DNA of 34,002 nucleotides, from positions 1-34,002 of the forward strand of contig JALRFY010000272.1 in assembly GCA_023253625.1 (NCBI GenBank). Reading direction: 5' to 3'. Below the pieces are notes generated by a model. The model did not search any database, was not told where the DNA came from, and was given only the letters and a program-made list of their open reading frames with translations. This stretch comes from Akkermansiaceae bacterium. GTDB lineage: Bacteria; Verrucomicrobiota; Verrucomicrobiia; Verrucomicrobiales; Akkermansiaceae. The translations under genes were made by a program, and so were the position numbers. Every line of letters starts with the position of its first letter. Position 1 is the first letter of the stretch. This document shows positions 21,376 to 30,263 of this stretch, piece by piece.

Positions 21376-22059
21376 ATGACCCCAAAATATCTGGCAGTTT
21401 TGCTCTTCGCCCATCCATCCGTCCACGCCTCCACGCCTTTCACGATTCTCGATCATTACACCGCTCGTGTGCCGACAGGCACCAGCTATCAGCAGCTCAC
21501 CTACTACACCCAATATGTGGACGCCGGGTCGGTGGATGCATCGCCCTTCGTAATCGACCTTCTCACCAGCCCTCGCCAAAATAACACAGGGATTCTGTTT
21601 TATGGCTCGACGGAGTTGATCTCCAAATCCCAGGCCAACACATTCCGGCTGAGTTCGACAACGGGGCTTTTCGATTTCACTTCGTTTTACCTGCAGGATT
21701 TGGAGCCGTATCACGATGAAGCTACGGCGACCACGATCCCGGAGATCACCATCAGCTCGAGCACCGGATTCTCCCAGACGTTTTCCGCGACGGTAGAGAG
21801 CGAAGAGATGTTTCCTGGTTTTTTTGATTATTCCTATACCTTCTTCGATACCGGGGTGAAGGAAATGAACTGGTCGGGAGTCGAGTGGGTGGATTTCACG
21901 ACCCATCACACCAAGGCGAAAACATCGGATTTTGTTTTGGCGACCAACATTTCCATGGTTCCCGAGCCGTCATCATTGGTCATCGGTGGATTGCTCGCGC
22001 TCCGGCTAATGACGCGGTGTCGTAGAGTGCAAATGCCGGCGTGCGCTGTGGCCCGTTAA
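21376..22059 (+). CDS. PEP-CTERM-type secreted/surface protein
   Basis: The 227-residue protein has a short N-terminal signal (MTPKYLAVLLFAHPSVHAST) and a Ser/Thr/Tyr-rich middle without a recognised domain. Its C-terminal sorting signal is VPEPSSLVIGGLLALRL followed by basic residues (MTRCRRVQ). PEP-CTERM proteins are processed by an exosortase, absent from this window, and exported to the surface or matrix. Two oddities: the hydrophobic stretch is short, and the basic tail continues for about 15 residues to the stop (MPACAVAR), longer than usual. Codon use is less GC-rich at third positions than in the housekeeping genes. A LytS/LytTR pair follows at 98 bases. Confidence 0.8.
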   Translation: MTPKYLAVLLFAHPSVHASTPFTILDHYTARVPTGTSYQQLTYYTQYVDAGSVDASPFVIDLLTSPRQNNTGILFYGSTELISKSQANTFRLSSTTGLFDFTSFYLQDLEPYHDEATATTIPEITISSSTGFSQTFSATVESEEMFPGFFDYSYTFFDTGVKEMNWSGVEWVDFTTHHTKAKTSDFVLATNISMVPEPSSLVIGGLLALRLMTRCRRVQMPACAVAR

Positions 22060-22157
22060 ATATCGCGAAGGTGTTCCGCAGCTTTTGCAAAAACAGGAAA
22101 GAATTTACTGCTGGAACCGGAAAGGACGTGATAGGCAGGTTTTTGATCTTAGCCGTC

Positions 22158-23330
22158 ATGCCTACAGCAGAAACAACGGGCACTCCTGTCCAAAGACCAT
22201 ACACTGCGTTGCCGCACGAGGCTTTGGGCAGCGAGGATGAGCGAGGTGCAGGCAGCTGGCGATGGGTGAGAGCGCTTACCGGAGCGACATCCCGGAATCA
22301 ACTTGGACTGCGGGGGTTTTTAGTCTTCCAGTCGATTTACTGGTTCGTGAGTGCGGTCACGCTGGTGGGGGTGTTGCAGAATTCCTCACCGGCCGGGGTC
22401 GATGGAGTTGTTGTTGCGGGGCGGGTGTTCACGGGAGTGCTGCTTACGAGTGCGCTCTTCCTCGCCTACCGCCACGCCTTCTCACATGGGTTTTCGCGCG
22501 TCATAAAATGGCTCTGGATCGTAGCTCTGAACTTGGCTGTCATTGGCATCGGCCCCTACCTGTGGAGGTTTTTAATTGATCTGGCCTATGGACCATCCCC
22601 GGGCTCGCCGCAACCCAGTTTCACCAACCTGCGGATCTACTCTTTGTTCACCTGGAACATTGCCTATTTCAGTCTCGTATTGATTTCCCACCAAAGGACG
22701 GCCCGGTTGCAACTCATCGAGGCGCGCGAAGTAGCGCATGCCGCCGAGCTCAAACAGTTGCAAATGCAACTCAACCCGCATTTCCTGTTCAATGCCTTGA
22801 ATGCGGTGATGGGGAGCTTGGAAACAAAGCACCAAGCCCGTGAAATCGTCCAAAACCTCGCTGATTTCCTGCGTTTTTCGCTGACGGAATCCCGACCACT
22901 GGAACCCCTGAGCCGGGAGCTCAATGCCCTGGAGTCATATCTCGGTCTCCAACAGGCTCGTTTTCAGGACGGCCTGCAATGCAGCATCAAGGCAAGCCCC
23001 GCCGCATCGCGCGTGATGGTGCCTCCGATGTTGATCCAGCCTTTGCTGGAGAACGCCTTCAAATACGCACCGCTGAGCAGCCCGCTGCCGCTGCGTGTGA
23101 GAGTGAAAGCGGGCATTGTGGACGGCTTGCTGGAAGTGAACGTGTTCAATTCCGGCCGGTGGCAGGAGCCGGTGAAGGGCGCGGCGCGGGGAACGGGCTT
23201 GGATAGCCTGCGCCGCCGGCTCGCATTGCTGAAGGGTGCGCAGGCCGGTCTGTCGATCTCCTCAGATTCGGACAGTGTGTCCATTACGATCCGCATGCCC
23301 ATAGCTGGAAAAAACACGATCCTTCCATAG
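22158..23330 (+). CDS. LytS-type sensor histidine kinase (His_kinase family)
   Basis: The 390-residue protein has about four membrane segments (52-73, 84-104, 116-138, 160-177) and a cytoplasmic kinase of the LytS/YehU family. The phosphoacceptor is His208 in LQMQLNPHFLFNALNAV. The ATP-binding part has PPMLIQPLLENAFKYA (N box) and GTGLDSLRRRLALL (G box). No extracytoplasmic sensor domain is visible, so the ligand would be sensed in or near the membrane. ATG 22158 is preferred over earlier in-frame starts because it gives a normal polar leader before the first helix. The response regulator starts 10 bases after the stop, so the two form an operon. Confidence 0.9.
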   Translation: MPTAETTGTPVQRPYTALPHEALGSEDERGAGSWRWVRALTGATSRNQLGLRGFLVFQSIYWFVSAVTLVGVLQNSSPAGVDGVVVAGRVFTGVLLTSALFLAYRHAFSHGFSRVIKWLWIVALNLAVIGIGPYLWRFLIDLAYGPSPGSPQPSFTNLRIYSLFTWNIAYFSLVLISHQRTARLQLIEAREVAHAAELKQLQMQLNPHFLFNALNAVMGSLETKHQAREIVQNLADFLRFSLTESRPLEPLSRELNALESYLGLQQARFQDGLQCSIKASPAASRVMVPPMLIQPLLENAFKYAPLSSPLPLRVRVKAGIVDGLLEVNVFNSGRWQEPVKGAARGTGLDSLRRRLALLKGAQAGLSISSDSDSVSITIRMPIAGKNTILP

Positions 23331-23340
23331 TAAGCTTCCA

Positions 23341-24072
23341 ATGAATTCTCAAATCAAGGCTCTGATTGTGGACGATGAGCCCTTGGCACGGGCTGCCCTG
23401 GCCACTTTGCTCTCGGAGCATGGGCAAGTTGAAATCACCGGCATGGCTGGCTGCGTGAAGGAAGCGCGGGCATTGTTGGCGCTGCAAGTGCCGGACGTTG
23501 TCTTTCTGGATATCGAAATGCCGGGAGGCTCCGGACTGGAGCTTGAGTCGTTTATCCCGGCAACGACCCGCACCATTTTCGTCACTGCCTACGCCGAATA
23601 CGCTCTCAAGGCTTTCGATTACGGCGCGAGTGATTATCTGGTCAAACCGGTGGATTCGCAGCGGTTGGAAATCGCGCTTGCGCGTTTGGATCGTCATATT
23701 CCCCTGCACAAATCCATTGCCACCGAAAAATGCCTGACCCTCGAGATGGATGGCAAAATCTTTCGACTGATCACCGCAGAAATCTTATGGATTAAAGCGC
23801 AGCAAAATTACAGCATGGTCCACACCACCGGCAAAGAAAACCCTTTGATGGTGCCGAAGTCGATGGCGGACTGGGAGGGCATCCTGGAGCCCGGAATTTT
23901 CCAACGTCTGGATCGCTCGATGATCATAAATATCAGCCACATCCATACCGTGAGCTGGCTTTCCCGTGACGAGACACTGGTGGCATTTTCGGGCGAAGCA
24001 AAAGCAGTCACGCTGGGCCGCACAGCTGCCCAACGGCTTAAGGCCAGGCTCACCAGGGAGGAAACTCTCTGA
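23341..24072 (+). CDS. LytTR-family response regulator
   Basis: The 243-residue protein has a receiver domain (about 5-120) with the acidic pair Asp11-Asp12, phosphoacceptor Asp57 in VVFLDIEMPGGSG, Thr in IFVTAYAEYALKAFDYGA and the conserved Lys in YLVKPVD. A C-terminal LytTR DNA-binding domain (about 140-240) contains ILWIKAQQNYSMVHTT, FQRLDRSMIINISHI and VTLGRTAAQRLKARL. LytTR regulators bind pairs of direct repeats and often control surface or extracellular products. The adjacent PEP-CTERM gene is a natural candidate target, but I found no clear LytTR repeats upstream of it. It follows the LytS kinase by 10 bases. Confidence 0.93.
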   Translation: MNSQIKALIVDDEPLARAALATLLSEHGQVEITGMAGCVKEARALLALQVPDVVFLDIEMPGGSGLELESFIPATTRTIFVTAYAEYALKAFDYGASDYLVKPVDSQRLEIALARLDRHIPLHKSIATEKCLTLEMDGKIFRLITAEILWIKAQQNYSMVHTTGKENPLMVPKSMADWEGILEPGIFQRLDRSMIINISHIHTVSWLSRDETLVAFSGEAKAVTLGRTAAQRLKARLTREETL

Positions 24073-26168: not shown

Positions 26169-26525
26169 TCAGCGGAAACGCTCGATCCGCACCGCTACGC
26201 AATCGGTGTCCGGCAGGATGCGTTTTTCCACACACACCCGGACGCCTGCGAGCGGGTATTGGCGCAGCAGCAGATCGGCGGTTTCAACTGCCAGCGTTTC
26301 GATAAGCCGCCGCGGGCGGGTGGCGGCGAGCGAGGTGATCTGCATGGCGACGGCGTGGTAATCCACGGTGCGCGAAATCTCGTCCGCAAGTCTGTCGAAG
26401 CCCTGGGACGGGATCATTTCCACGCTGATCCAAAGTTTCTGAGGGTTGGCACGTTCTTCGTCCGGCACGCCGATGTGAGCCCGCACTTGTAGGCGGCGGA
26501 TTTCGATACTGTCAGGCAGGGGCAT
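26169..26525 (-). CDS. folB: Dihydroneopterin aldolase
   Basis: FolB splits dihydroneopterin to hydroxymethyl-dihydropterin and glycolaldehyde in folate synthesis. From ATG 26525 the product has 118 residues. Family pieces are IEIRRLQVRAHIGVPDEER (the catalytic Glu is in GVPDEER), PQKLWISVEM, DEISRTVDYHAVAMQI, RLIETLAVETADLLL and VRVCVEKRILPDTDCVAVRI. The start overlaps the 3' end of the HAD-Nudix gene by 14 bases, so the two are translationally coupled. Other folate genes are not in the window. FolB homologues of the FolX (epimerase) type cannot be fully excluded. Confidence 0.9.
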   Translation of the reverse strand: MPLPDSIEIRRLQVRAHIGVPDEERANPQKLWISVEMIPSQGFDRLADEISRTVDYHAVAMQITSLAATRPRRLIETLAVETADLLLRQYPLAGVRVCVEKRILPDTDCVAVRIERFR

Positions 26526-27564
26526 GTTCGAGGAGGTTGCGGCCGAGGCATTCATCCAGCAGCAGTCGCGTGGGCCGGTTCAATTCGAGCGTGCGCGCTT
26601 GCTGGGGTGTGAGCCAGCGGAATTCCTCTGCTTCGCCATTGAGCATGACATCGGTGCCGTTGGCGCGCGCGAGGTAATTGAGCAGCAGGAAATGCTCCGG
26701 ACGCATGAACTCCGGCGAGTCGATGCAATCCTGCGCCATCAGGAAGCGGATGTCCTCGATTTCGAGAGAGGTTTCCTCGCGGATTTCGCGGCGCAGGGCG
26801 TCGATGGATGCCTCACCGCGACGGATTTTCCCGCCGGGAATTCCCCAGAGATTGTTCCACTTGTGGGTGCGGACCATCAGCACGCGGCCATGGCAGTCCT
26901 CGATGAGGGCACCGACGGTGGCCACCGGGGCGGCGGCGCGATGGCGGCGTTCCATGAGGGCGCGCAGCGCGCCGAGGTCCGCCACTGTGAGGTCTGGTTT
27001 GACGCTGGCGAGGATTTCCGGGTGATTGTAGCCCGTGAGCACGGCGACGGAGGCCAGCCCGCCGTGGCGCGCGGTTTCCACGTCGTGGGTCATATCGCCC
27101 ACGAAGGCGGTCTCAATGGGAGCCAGGCGGTGGGTTTCGAGAATGCGGTGGATCACTTCACGTTTGTCGAGCACGCCGGCGTAGGTGGCTTCGAAAAGGT
27201 GGCGGAAGCCGAAATCGTCGAGTTGGTGGGCGAAGGCGGCTTCATCCATCGAGGTGAGCACGAAGCAGCGGATTCCAAGCGTTGCGCACCACTCGAGTTT
27301 TTCCCGGGCGTGCGGCAGCACTGTGACGGGTGCGGCGGCAGCGGCGAAAGCCGGGCGAAAATGTGCCTCAAGCTCCTCCAGCGGCACGTCCGGCAGGATT
27401 TCCGCGTAAAACTCGCTGTAAGGCAGGCGGAAGCTCCGGCGGAACCTCTCACGGTCGTAGGGTGGAAGGTCGTATCTGCCCAGCACCGCATTGGTTGCCT
27501 CGATCACCGGGCCGAGATCGTCCACCAAGGTGCCGGACCAATCGAAAATGAGATTGCGGAACAT
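26512..27564 (-). CDS. HAD hydrolase fused to a Nudix hydrolase
   Basis: The 350-residue protein joins two phosphate-cleaving domains. Residues 1-205 are a HAD phosphatase: motif I FDWSGTLVDD (nucleophile Asp8), motif II VLTS (102-105), motif III Lys134, motif IV VGDMTHD (Asp157, Asp161). Position 10, normally the second Asp of DxD, is Ser, as in the D-W-A of phosphonoacetaldehyde hydrolase. Residues 212-345 are a Nudix domain with box G245x5E251x7R259-E260-x2-E263-E264; Ser266 replaces the usual Gly. The pairing suggests a house-cleaning enzyme that cleaves a nucleoside diphosphate linkage and then dephosphorylates the product, but the substrate is unknown. It lies 15 bases after the DciA-like gene and overlaps folB. 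Confidence 0.88.
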   Translation of the reverse strand: MFRNLIFDWSGTLVDDLGPVIEATNAVLGRYDLPPYDRERFRRSFRLPYSEFYAEILPDVPLEELEAHFRPAFAAAAAPVTVLPHAREKLEWCATLGIRCFVLTSMDEAAFAHQLDDFGFRHLFEATYAGVLDKREVIHRILETHRLAPIETAFVGDMTHDVETARHGGLASVAVLTGYNHPEILASVKPDLTVADLGALRALMERRHRAAAPVATVGALIEDCHGRVLMVRTHKWNNLWGIPGGKIRRGEASIDALRREIREETSLEIEDIRFLMAQDCIDSPEFMRPEHFLLLNYLARANGTDVMLNGEAEEFRWLTPQQARTLELNRPTRLLLDECLGRNLLEHAPA

Positions 27565-27579
27565 GATCGGGCGGTTCGT

Positions 27580-27984
27580 TCAACCGATGGTGAATTTGAT
27601 GGATTTGATGCGTGCGGTGGCCTGATTGTCGCGGATGCGGTTGAGCAGCATCGGTTTCATCTGCTCGAGTTGGAAACGCATTGCGGGCTGGGTGACTCGC
27701 AGCACGAGCAGGCCGTTTTTGACAGATGCCGGCTCGGTGTTGCGGGCGATGAACTCACCGGCAATTTCACGCCAGGCGGTTTTGAGTTCCTGTTCCTGGA
27801 TGCCCTCGGCGAGGCCTGCGGATTTGAGGATGGCATCAACGAAGGTCCCGGCGCGCTGGACATGGGACTGAAGGTCGAGCGCCTCATCGCAGCCGCGCCA
27901 CTCAGTGAGGATCCGTGACCGGATCCGTGCGGCACGCGCTGGATTGCGGCGGGGAGCGCCGGAGCGGCGATCATTCGTCGCCAT
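27580..27984 (-). CDS. DUF721/DciA-like protein
   Basis: The 134-residue protein has a basic N-terminus (MATNDRRSGAPRRNPARAAR) and a C-terminal DUF721 domain: FVDAILKSAGLAEGI, LKTAWREIAGEFIARNTEPA, NGLLVLRVTQPAMRFQLEQM, then LLNRIRDN. The pattern W..iaG..ia.ht.p..v..g.L.v.v..p.w..eL is that of the family that includes DciA, a helicase-loading partner of DnaB in many bacteria. Whether this copy has that role is not shown by the sequence. Its ATG overlaps the end of the ferredoxin gene by 14 bases. The HAD-Nudix gene starts 15 bases after its stop, giving a compact four-gene operon. Confidence 0.8.
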   Translation of the reverse strand: MATNDRRSGAPRRNPARAARIRSRILTEWRGCDEALDLQSHVQRAGTFVDAILKSAGLAEGIQEQELKTAWREIAGEFIARNTEPASVKNGLLVLRVTQPAMRFQLEQMKPMLLNRIRDNQATARIKSIKFTIG

Positions 27985-28207
27985 CGTCGCCAATGGCTTC
28001 CACTGGGCAACCTTCCATTGCTTCGCGGCATTGGGCTTCCTCTTCGTCGTTTTCGGGTTGTTTGAAAACGTAGGAATAACCTTCATCGTCCGAGCGACGG
28101 AAATTGTTGGGAGCGGTTTCGCGGCAAAGGTCGCAGTCGATGCATTGGCTATCGACATAGAATTTGCCGGTGACGTTTTCAGCGTTTTTATCTTCTCGAT
28201 CGGCCAT
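27971..28207 (-). CDS. Small single-cluster [4Fe-4S] ferredoxin
   Basis: The 78-residue, very acidic protein has the ligands Cys22, Cys25, Cys28 (CIDCDLCRETAP) and Cys67 (EGCPVEAIGDDGDE), with one extra Cys60. That is the single-[4Fe-4S] ferredoxin pattern (Fer4_13/Fer4_15-like). It would carry electrons for an unidentified cytoplasmic redox enzyme. It is the first gene of the minus-strand operon with the DciA-like gene, HAD-Nudix and folB. The divergent gene at 28345 shares its upstream region. I found no clear promoter for it. Confidence 0.9.
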   Translation of the reverse strand: MADREDKNAENVTGKFYVDSQCIDCDLCRETAPNNFRRSDDEGYSYVFKQPENDEEEAQCREAMEGCPVEAIGDDGDE

Positions 28208-28300
28208 GGGTAATGGGGTGGAATGTGTGGCTCATGGATGGCCGTGCAGACAGCGTGATGCAATCCGATTTTTCGTGAACTTGTCATGCGGGATTCGCAC

Positions 28301-28344: not shown

Positions 28345-29424
28345 ATGAGCTCCCAGCAAGACCCCAACCAGCCTGAGGGCGTGAATCCTCTTCCGCCACG
28401 CCACCGGCCCAGCCTCGTTGAACTCGGGCAAAGGACCACCGAGACCGACCTGTGGTCGCTGGATGACAATCTGGATTCAGACGGTCCCGCACCCGACGAA
28501 CCCGTGCGCGCCCTGGGGGCCATCATGCCCGAACCGCGCCAACGCGCGATATCCGCCAAAGCGGTCGAGACTTCCGGACAGAGCGGCGAAGTGACGCCAG
28601 CGCAGCGCGAACAAGCGCGCATGAACGAGGACAAGCCCCGGACCACGCCTGCTGGCGAACAAAAACCCCCTGCGATATTTTCCCCATACGGTGAATTGGA
28701 CGACTTGGAAGCCTGGGACAATGAGCCCGACGTATCTGGCATGGGCGGAATTTCGCAGGCTGCCGGTGCGGCTTCCATGCCTCAACAACCGGCCGTGCCG
28801 CAGCCATCAGAAGCAGCAGACGAGCCGCAGCCGGTGGCGAAAAAACCAACCATCGCCACTGGACCGGAAGCGATTCCCGCCGCGCCCCGCCTGCGCCTCG
28901 GCCTGTCCGGATTCGAGCGGATCGGCTTGGGCGTGCTCGGGGTATTGTTGTGCGCAGTCGCCATTTCTTTCTATCTGTTTTCCGTCAAGCGCCTGCCGTC
29001 TGAGAGGCAACGGGCGGAGACCACCGATTTTCCGATCAAAGGAGCACGCATGTCCGTCGAGGTGGCGGACACCTATTGGCGGGTCCCGGTGACCGGCGGG
29101 GCGAATGCCGATACCGTCCGCCGCGGCACACAGTTGATGCCGGAGATCCGGATGAAGGTTAAGGGGCACGGTGCGCTGCGAGTGCTTTTCCGCGATGACG
29201 CGCGGCAATTCGTGGGCGATGCCGTGACGCGCGAGGTGGACGGCCAGGAGAACCTGCGCATTTCCGCCACGGCCGGCTTCGAGGATACCGGCATGCACGC
29301 GGCCTACCGCACCGGCGGCACCAAGCCGTGGACCGTTTCGGTTTACGAAGGGGAATCCGTCAACTCGCCGGGCAGCGGGTTCAAGCTGCTTTTTGAAATG
29401 AACATATCCACCGACCGCCGTTGA
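28345..29424 (+). CDS. Membrane-anchored protein of unknown function
   Basis: The 359-residue protein has a low-complexity, Pro/Glu/Gln-rich cytoplasmic N-terminal half (1-190), including short motifs such as SLVELGQRTTETDLWSLDDN and GELDDLEAWDNEPDVSGMGG. One membrane segment follows (about 193-213, IGLGVLGVLLCAVAISFYLF), then an exported C-terminal domain of about 140 residues rich in beta strands. I do not recognise a family. Its stop overlaps an in-frame TTG that could start hemQ, and the hemQ ATG is 11 bases further on, so the two are cotranscribed. A link to heme synthesis is only positional. Confidence 0.7.
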   Translation: MSSQQDPNQPEGVNPLPPRHRPSLVELGQRTTETDLWSLDDNLDSDGPAPDEPVRALGAIMPEPRQRAISAKAVETSGQSGEVTPAQREQARMNEDKPRTTPAGEQKPPAIFSPYGELDDLEAWDNEPDVSGMGGISQAAGAASMPQQPAVPQPSEAADEPQPVAKKPTIATGPEAIPAAPRLRLGLSGFERIGLGVLGVLLCAVAISFYLFSVKRLPSERQRAETTDFPIKGARMSVEVADTYWRVPVTGGANADTVRRGTQLMPEIRMKVKGHGALRVLFRDDARQFVGDAVTREVDGQENLRISATAGFEDTGMHAAYRTGGTKPWTVSVYEGESVNSPGSGFKLLFEMNISTDRR

Positions 29425-29435
29425 ATCGACCCGCC

Positions 29436-30263
29436 ATGAACCATGATACTGTGACTCCCGTTGTGCCGCGCGAGGGCTGGCATGTGCTGCACCTTTTTTA
29501 TCATGTCGATCACGCCCAGTGGTCGCTGCTCAGCGACGAGGAGCAGCGACAGGCCAAGACCCGGCTCACCGGCCTGGTGCAGGAGATCCGCGCCACGCCG
29601 GAGACGCATTTGCTGGGATTCGCGGTGGCGAGCCCGAAGGCGGATCTCGGCTTCATGCTTCTCACGCCGGACCTCCAAGTGGCAAATGCCTACGAGAAGC
29701 AACTCACCCTCTCGCTCGGTCCGGACATCTTGAACCCCGCGTATTCCTATCTCTCGCAGACCGAAAGCTCGGAATACACCACCACCCGTGAACAATACGC
29801 CGCGGAGACGCTCGTCGCCGAAAAAGGGCTCGCCGTAGGCACCCCGGATTACGATGCGGCGCTCAAGGAGTTCGATGATCGCATGGCCCATTATCTCAAG
29901 CACCGGCTCTATCCGGTATTGCCGGACTGGCCGGTGATTTGCTTTTACCCGATGTCCAAGCGCCGCCATGGCAACGACAACTGGTATTCGCTTTCCTTCG
30001 AGGACCGCCGCCGCCTGATGGCCGGCCACGCGCGGGTCGGACGCACCTATTCCGGGCGCATCCTCCAGCTCATCACCGGCTCGACCGGGCTCGATGAATA
30101 CGAATGGGGCGTCACCCTGCTCGCCAAGGACACGCTGGACATCAAGGCGATCGTTTACGAAATGCGCTTCGATGAAGTCTCGGCACGCTACGGTGAATTT
30201 GGAGACTTTTACATCGGCCTGCAGCTTCCACTCGACGAGTTGTTCCGTCGCGTCTGCCTGTGA
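29436..30263 (+). CDS. hemQ: Coproheme decarboxylase (HemQ/ChdC)
   Basis: HemQ (ChdC) converts coproheme to heme b in the coproporphyrin-dependent pathway and belongs to the chlorite dismutase superfamily. From ATG 29436 the product has 275 residues; TTG 29421 is an alternative five codons upstream. Hallmarks are GWHVLHLFYHVDHAQW, CFYPMSKRRHGNDNWYSLSF (catalytic Tyr and Lys of YPMxK), MAGHARVGRTYSGRILQLIT (proximal His) and EWGVTLLAKDTLDIKAIVYE followed by MRFDEVSARYGEFGDFYIG. This is the decarboxylase, not a true chlorite dismutase. Other heme genes are absent from the window. ptsH converges, with its stop 20 bases away. Confidence 0.93.
   Translation: MNHDTVTPVVPREGWHVLHLFYHVDHAQWSLLSDEEQRQAKTRLTGLVQEIRATPETHLLGFAVASPKADLGFMLLTPDLQVANAYEKQLTLSLGPDILNPAYSYLSQTESSEYTTTREQYAAETLVAEKGLAVGTPDYDAALKEFDDRMAHYLKHRLYPVLPDWPVICFYPMSKRRHGNDNWYSLSFEDRRRLMAGHARVGRTYSGRILQLITGSTGLDEYEWGVTLLAKDTLDIKAIVYEMRFDEVSARYGEFGDFYIGLQLPLDELFRRVCL

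Follow-up and report, generated by a model that had tools for sequence, protein, structure and literature searches.

A HAD-Nudix fusion gene linked to folB in Verrucomicrobiota and its candidate role in folate synthesis

FolB enzymes convert dihydroneopterin into hydroxymethyl-dihydropterin, and the well-studied members of this family use the unphosphorylated pterin as substrate. The pathway is presented in this way, with FolB acting on an unphosphorylated pterin, in the pathway description of a comparative genomics study from 2007 (PMC1971073), where the last dephosphorylation before FolB is credited to a "non-specific" phosphatase. The same wording appears in the corresponding passages of two accounts of plant folate synthesis, from 2017 (PMC5372827) and 2019 (PMC6451014), and the description of this step in a paper from 2023 (PMC10339729) refers to "a specific phosphatase", naming no gene at that point. 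A stretch of 34,002 nucleotides from an Akkermansiaceae bacterium (assembly GCA_023253625.1, contig JALRFY010000272.1), hereafter the window, raises the question of whether this phosphatase can be given a gene. In the window, a protein joining a HAD phosphatase to a Nudix hydrolase is encoded by a gene that overlaps folB, and an initial annotation proposed that it strips the phosphates from dihydroneopterin triphosphate. Among the matches listed by a search of titles and abstract beginnings in the openly licensed literature, none describes such a fusion. If the proposal holds, the family would be a concrete candidate for a phosphatase step of folate synthesis that has no assigned gene, and would represent a HAD phosphatase working without the usual acid/base residue.

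The fusion gene and its linkage to folB

The fusion gene (26512-27564, minus strand) starts with ATG and encodes 350 residues; it is defined by the list of open reading frames (ORFs), by Pfam matches to HAD_2 and NUDIX, and by near-full-length homologues. Its HAD domain (residues 5-175; 27040-27552, minus strand; 73.6 bits against a Pfam cut-off of 23.8) holds the nucleophile D8, a serine (S10) two positions further on (D+2), K134, D157, H160, and D161, and its Nudix domain (residues 215-328; 26581-26922, minus strand; 79.4 bits against 21.1) has R259, E260, E263, and E264 of the Nudix box intact. The presence of two complete domains in one chain is therefore real, both being well over their cut-offs, and so is the overlap with folB, which covers 14 nt (26512-26525) including the stop codon of the fusion. 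The folB gene itself (dihydroneopterin aldolase; 26169-26525, minus strand), read from the ATG at 26525, encodes a product matching PF02152 with 78.8 bits (cut-off 31.8). An ORF with a C-terminal DciA (DUF721) domain (27580-28287, minus strand) lies 15 nt upstream of the fusion, and the first gene downstream of folB encodes ribosomal protein L9 (25583-26128, minus strand; Pfam), all four genes following each other on the minus strand in the order DciA ORF, fusion, folB, L9 gene. A tblastn search for L9 against the loci L007-L115 matched solely the window's own stretch, and the flanks of the loci vary.

Elsewhere in the window, a chlorite dismutase-family protein (PF06778, 161 bits) is encoded at 29421-30263 (plus strand), adjoining an ORF of 359 residues that has no Pfam match; members of this family are often heme-synthesis enzymes. 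At 22041-24072 (plus strand), a His_kinase-family (PF06580) sensor and a LytTR response regulator are encoded with 10 nt between them.

The distribution of the protein was followed at three levels. A whole-protein search of 59 genomes (the window's own and 58 relatives, E 0.001) gave some match in every genome, many of these being paralogues. Near-whole-protein matches were found in 30: 26 are of the same genus, counting the window's own genome, and the other four (G038, G039, G040, and G053) belong to different families of the same order; further genomes among the 59 have HAD-only matches of high identity. A scan of public genomes, limited to the best 80 of 93 confirmed stretches, yielded 79 loci, the record titles of which include Akkermansiaceae, Luteolibacter, Haloferula, Rubritalea, Akkermansia, Prosthecobacter, and uncultured Verrucomicrobia. 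Finally, among 387 sampled genomes of the phylum, 56 match the HAD half at E 1e-20 (one of which, G126, was left out of locus retrieval); all but two weak ones belong to the class of the window, and those two carry DWNGT in motif I, not DWSGT. With the profiles built in this work, 179 loci gave 142 distinct HAD sequences, of which 141 were aligned, one short row being dropped. Three rows fall outside the family (L158, L159, and L185), leaving 139 HAD sequences, which are distinct yet not independent, many of them sharing one genus; one of them (L085) is partial, lies at a contig end, and does not extend to motif I.

A linkage to folB confined to this genome, which the initial annotation had named as fatal to its proposal when calling for a survey of the domain pair across Verrucomicrobiota, is not what was found. 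The link extends across many families of this class. For 122 of the 139 HAD sequences, folB lies on the same stretch and strand, either overlapping (60), in a single HAD-FolB chain (39), within 60 nt (19), or farther away (4). The 72 HAD-Nudix genes overlap folB in 49 cases, lie within 60 nt of it in 13, and farther from it in 4, the other 6 having no folB on the stretch; for the 28 HADs that stand alone, the corresponding figures are 11 overlapping, 6 within 60 nt, and 11 without folB. The 17 HADs without folB on the stretch come chiefly from the families f3 and f8, and include one locus cut by a contig end (L096). The commonest overlaps are of 4 nt (32 cases), 14 nt (14), and 8 nt (10), lengths that are estimates because start codons were picked by rule.

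Adjacency alone is, however, a poor guide to function here, because dciA and folB also adjoin without the HAD. Upstream of the HAD, dciA is found at most loci of the window's own genus, as well as in some other genera and families, but dciA and folB are neighbours in three of the six HAD-less f2 genomes examined (L189, L197, and L206), so that part of this gene order is simply old. The DciA ORF belongs to this inherited order and lies outside the proposed enzyme. These three genomes, together with the retention of the HAD without a linked folB in f3 and f8, favour an explanation in which a house-cleaning HAD of the phosphoglycolate phosphatase type is joined to a nucleotide-cleaning Nudix, the link to folB being inherited as part of a dciA-HAD-folB order in which adjacent, overlapping genes fuse easily. 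This explanation is unlikely, though it deserves some weight, and it is opposed by several families with HAD-folB adjacency in which dciA was not detected in the available flanks, namely the Akkermansia-like genus, f4, f5, f12, f15, f20, f22, and two of the three f6 genomes.

At the scanned loci where folB is not linked to the HAD (L146, L147, L154, L169, L171, L172, and L174), no folate gene was found among 10 ORFs neighbouring the HAD, two of which matched no family. In HAD-less or unlinked genomes, no other phosphatase or Nudix gene was found among 10 ORFs neighbouring folB, two of which again matched no family. In two f8 genomes, the unlinked DWSGT HAD has a co-directional PF03641 ("possible lysine decarboxylase") gene upstream of it (L147, 3761-4801, minus strand; L154, 1494-2534, plus strand), and in one f3 genome it is followed directly, on its downstream side, by the gene of another, different HAD (PF00702, 93.8 bits; L171, 249-1064, minus strand).

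Active site and kinship of the HAD half

Motif I of the window HAD reads D8-W-S10-G-T. In HAD phosphatases, the aspartate at D+2 acts as the general acid/base, and a serine at this position should weaken the ordinary phosphatase chemistry of the family. Across the 141 aligned rows, D8, G11, T12, K134, G156, D157, and D161 are invariant, H160 is present in 140, and S10 in 138; the exceptions are L158 and L159, with DWNGT and the histidine present, and L185, a DFDGT paralogue with arginine. The DWSGT motif without the usual second aspartate, as pointed out by the initial annotation, is therefore borne out, Ser10 replacing the aspartate. By its nucleophile D8, its motif III lysine K134, its motif IV acidic residues D157 and D161, its Pfam score over the cut-off, and its Foldseek matches to capped HADs, the domain belongs to the HAD superfamily (HAD_2), and it departs from the HAD phosphatases at D+2. 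The two DWNGT HADs, which come from other classes (L158, 2910-3668, minus strand; L159, 1290-1997, plus strand), have the motif IV histidine (GDTxHD) in common with the DWSGT proteins and likewise carry no second aspartate.

Paralogous HADs from the relatives behave differently. In this set (40 stretches, 39 of which were read, the 207-base L343 being left out), all 39 have aspartate at D+2, and only one (L334) has a histidine before the last aspartate of motif IV. Loss of the second aspartate thus coincides with H160, a possible replacement acid/base. Compensation by His160 is nevertheless suggested rather than proven, because the 39 paralogues amount to a small number of closely related groups, and the swap could reflect just one or two evolutionary events. 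The same contrast between S10 and the aspartate of the paralogues would also agree with a crippled or regulatory HAD, slow in turnover without its second aspartate and serving FolB as a module for binding or assembly; this is highly improbable in view of the seven residues invariant in all rows, which would be needless in a dead domain, and of the conserved His160, which may stand in for the aspartate.

Phosphonoacetaldehyde hydrolase has an alanine at D+2 and a Schiff-base lysine in the cap, and shares with the window HAD a D+2 residue other than aspartate. The resemblance to this enzyme drawn by the initial annotation does not extend further, and a phosphonatase identity was discarded: the score against TIGR01422 is 19.7 bits, with a cut-off of 220, the D+2 residue is serine and not alanine, the HAD-Nudix alignment has no conserved cap lysine, and the best matches lie among phosphoglycolate phosphatase-like HADs. 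Between columns 16 and 82 of the HAD-Nudix alignment, no column has lysine in half or more of the rows, and the window protein has no lysine before residue 89, which disfavours a Schiff base of the phosphonatase kind. In the HAD-FolB alignment, lysine occupies half or more of the rows at a single cap column, 56.

The phosphoglycolate phosphatase-like HADs (PF13419; Gph and PpaX; PDB 2ah5, 2hsz, and 3d6j) rank among the top matches in NCBIfam, PDB sequences, and Foldseek for the window HAD, with which they have the capped fold and motifs I-IV in common, except for D+2. The window HAD differs from them by its serine at that position, its histidine before the last aspartate of motif IV, and its linkage or fusion to folB, and it stays below the phosphoglycolate phosphatase equivalog of NCBIfam (at best 54.8 bits against a cut-off of 225). 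That its best NCBIfam matches are phosphoglycolate phosphatase models, although all far under their cut-offs, agrees with the house-cleaning explanation.

This kinship also bears on the order of events around FolB. Since the substrate of phosphoglycolate phosphatases is a two-carbon phosphate, their resemblance to the HAD in sequence and fold would fit a reversed order, in which FolB cleaves dihydroneopterin monophosphate and the HAD dephosphorylates the resulting glycolaldehyde phosphate, a compound that would resemble phosphonoacetaldehyde. Gene linkage and fusion cannot distinguish a step before FolB from one after it. The reversed order is nonetheless improbable, in that the well-studied FolB enzymes use the unphosphorylated pterin, as in the pathway outlined above, and the HAD-Nudix fusion of many relatives suggests a step before FolB.

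The structure modelling called for by the initial annotation was carried out with AlphaFold2, and both arrangements model as well-folded domains, with a mean pLDDT of 89.6 and a pTM of 0.61 for the window protein, and of 90.4 and 0.64, respectively, for the Akkermansia-labelled HAD-FolB chain L101; these pTM values are moderate, so the models leave the relative placement of the domains open. Foldseek matched the HAD to phosphoglycolate phosphatase-like enzymes, and the Nudix domain to proteins that include NudI, Ap6A hydrolase, and NUDX1. All 50 Foldseek matches listed for the HAD-FolB model are HAD proteins, so that a match to the FolB fold does not appear among them.

The Nudix half

The second half of the window protein is a Nudix hydrolase by its GX5EX7REUXEEXGU box with the catalytic residues, the late glycine being variable. 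G245, E251, R259, E260, E263, and E264 are found in 31 of 31 aligned relatives. Ser266, which replaces the late glycine in the window protein, was correctly read by the initial annotation, but its interpretation as a meaningful change had to be abandoned: glycine (16), alanine (9), serine (5), and asparagine (1) all occur at this position among the 31 aligned sequences, window included, so that it represents ordinary variation and no family trait.

The fused Nudix domains are closer to each other than to free-standing ones, with a mean mutual identity of 56% (minimum 44%) among 19 chosen domains, versus 38% at most with 15 free-standing Nudix domains from these genomes. In the Nudix tree, whose inner support is weak, they cluster together, except that one very long free-standing row (L248) falls within their group. 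From these sequence comparisons, the fused Nudix looks like the product of a single origin. It is absent, on the other hand, from many loci that retain the HAD and FolB, and 30 genomes lacking the fused domain yielded no clear free-standing orthologue of it, although 24 of them have some Nudix match; the best free match in those genomes reaches E 3.1e-10 with 41% identity over query residues 8-119, and short stretches reach up to 48%.

Regarding its substrate, a profile search of PDB sequences ranks NudI and MutT-type proteins highest for the Nudix part, the NudI chain 3oga (E 7.9e-13) coming ahead of the NudB chain 2o1c (E 1.2e-6). This proximity to NudI is a further point for a nucleotide-cleaning Nudix, as the house-cleaning explanation would have it. 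The FolQ/NudB dihydroneopterin triphosphate pyrophosphatases (FolQ from L. lactis, NudB from E. coli, and NUDX1 from Arabidopsis) have, like the window protein, a Nudix domain with a complete catalytic box; the window Nudix differs from them in being fused to a HAD, and the sequence similarity is distant. A folate-gene neighbourhood, through which FolQ was found according to the account of it in PMC1971073, is common to FolQ and the window protein.

HAD-FolB chains and the proposed role in folate synthesis

The Nudix-less HAD ORFs of Akkermansia, of most loci labelled Rubritalea, and of some further loci measure 323-338 residues because FolB runs on in the same chain; at the remaining Nudix-less loci, the HAD has 207-226 residues and adjoins folB. 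The five HAD-FolB chains scanned (L089, L100, L101, L111, and L115) exceed the Pfam cut-offs for both HAD_2 and FolB, and E233, Y265, E285, and K310 (L101 numbering), which we take to be the catalytic residues of FolB, are retained in 18 of 18 fused chains. FolB, present here either as a partner gene or as a C-terminal domain, is thus identified by PF02152 over its cut-off and by its retained catalytic residues, and also exceeds the cut-off of TIGR00526, but the stricter equivalog TIGR00525 (72.15 bits) is not reached by the window protein (66.7 bits) or by three fused chains (50.4-61.9 bits). An assembly error is ruled out as the source of these fusions because the fused ORFs occur in single-contig genomes (for example G079, G082, G091, and G284). 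None of the 179 loci has HAD, Nudix, and FolB in one chain.

The fusion of HAD to FolB has recurred in several lineages. Mapped on a 91-row HAD tree, the HAD-FolB label requires six changes, of which well-supported branches force at least three, and the placement of all HAD-FolB rows in one clade is rejected (p-AU 0.000196; 22 versus 46 rows, quick tree). A likely history starts from one ancestral HAD-Nudix gene before folB, followed by repeated loss of the Nudix domain and repeated welding of HAD to FolB. Such recurrence is harder to ascribe to the inertia of an inherited gene order, even though overlapping neighbours fuse more easily, and thereby counts against the house-cleaning explanation. 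So does the presence of FolB in all 56 HAD-bearing genomes of the phylum sample, compared with 345 of 387 overall, a contrast inflated by relatedness. Most FolB-bearing members of the phylum are without the HAD (345 versus 56 of the 387 genomes, the latter at E 1e-20), which counts against the proposed role in folate synthesis.

The remaining genes of the pathway are compatible with a supply of the proposed substrate. FolE2 was found in 22 of 22 genomes (as three incomplete matches in the genome of the window, of which two lie at contig ends), and FolE1 in none of 18, the same search being positive in 11 of 14 control genomes; dihydroneopterin triphosphate can therefore be made via FolE2. HPPK (FolK) was found in 17 of 18 genomes, the exception being a genome that is 79% complete. 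All 22 genomes also have PTPS-family proteins, and a crude pattern search detected the motif CxxxHGH with its cysteine, presumably of the QueD type, in 15 of them, and in none of G004, G039, G056, G129, G135, G364, and G373. Two near-complete genomes of the Akkermansia-like genus, which clusters with the Akkermansia-labelled loci, have neither the HAD nor FolB and retain FolE2 and HPPK (G170 and G251). The joint absence of the HAD and FolB favours the proposed connection between them, and the retained FolE2 and HPPK speak against it. A PTPS-III bypass as the reason for this double loss was considered and found unsupported, the PTPS motif of both genomes being CxxxHGH with cysteine.

In the proposed pathway, FolE2 would provide 7,8-dihydroneopterin triphosphate, from which the Nudix domain would remove pyrophosphate to give the monophosphate. 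The HAD would then take off the remaining phosphate by way of an aspartyl-phosphate at D8, as its intact D8, K134, D157, and D161 would allow, and FolB, whether as the product of the overlapping gene or, in relatives, as part of the HAD chain, would convert dihydroneopterin into hydroxymethyl-dihydropterin. The HAD step looks like the conserved core of this role, and the Nudix step like an older addition that many lineages do without. The HAD part of this explanation is better supported than the Nudix part. On the basis of linkage and fusion, the HAD half is a candidate for a dedicated dihydroneopterin monophosphate phosphatase, an assignment slightly favoured by the genomic evidence, whereas for the Nudix half, taken on its own, a role as dihydroneopterin triphosphatase is evenly balanced; that both halves act as proposed falls a little short of an even chance. 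The substrate put forward by the initial annotation, dihydroneopterin triphosphate, accordingly fares unequally: the folB link and the HAD-FolB chains speak for the HAD half, while the case for a Nudix that is often absent, and nearer to NudI than to NudB, is weaker. The most specific reading, of a dedicated dihydroneopterin monophosphate phosphatase that has replaced its acid/base aspartate by serine, uses the motif IV histidine instead, and has been welded alternately to Nudix and to FolB, must be considered tentative and rather doubtful as a whole.

A different partner of FolB is seen in f8 genomes, where the domain that precedes FolB in the fused chain is a cpYpsA SLOG domain (PF12694, 175-180 bits) and not the HAD (L187, 1420-2385, minus strand; L188, 1462-2424, minus strand). 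In the f8 genome G066 (L191), FolB stands alone, without the SLOG partner. The N-terminal sequence of the SLOG-FolB proteins of L187 and L188 recurs in L192 and L194, and L193 has an ORF of similar length.
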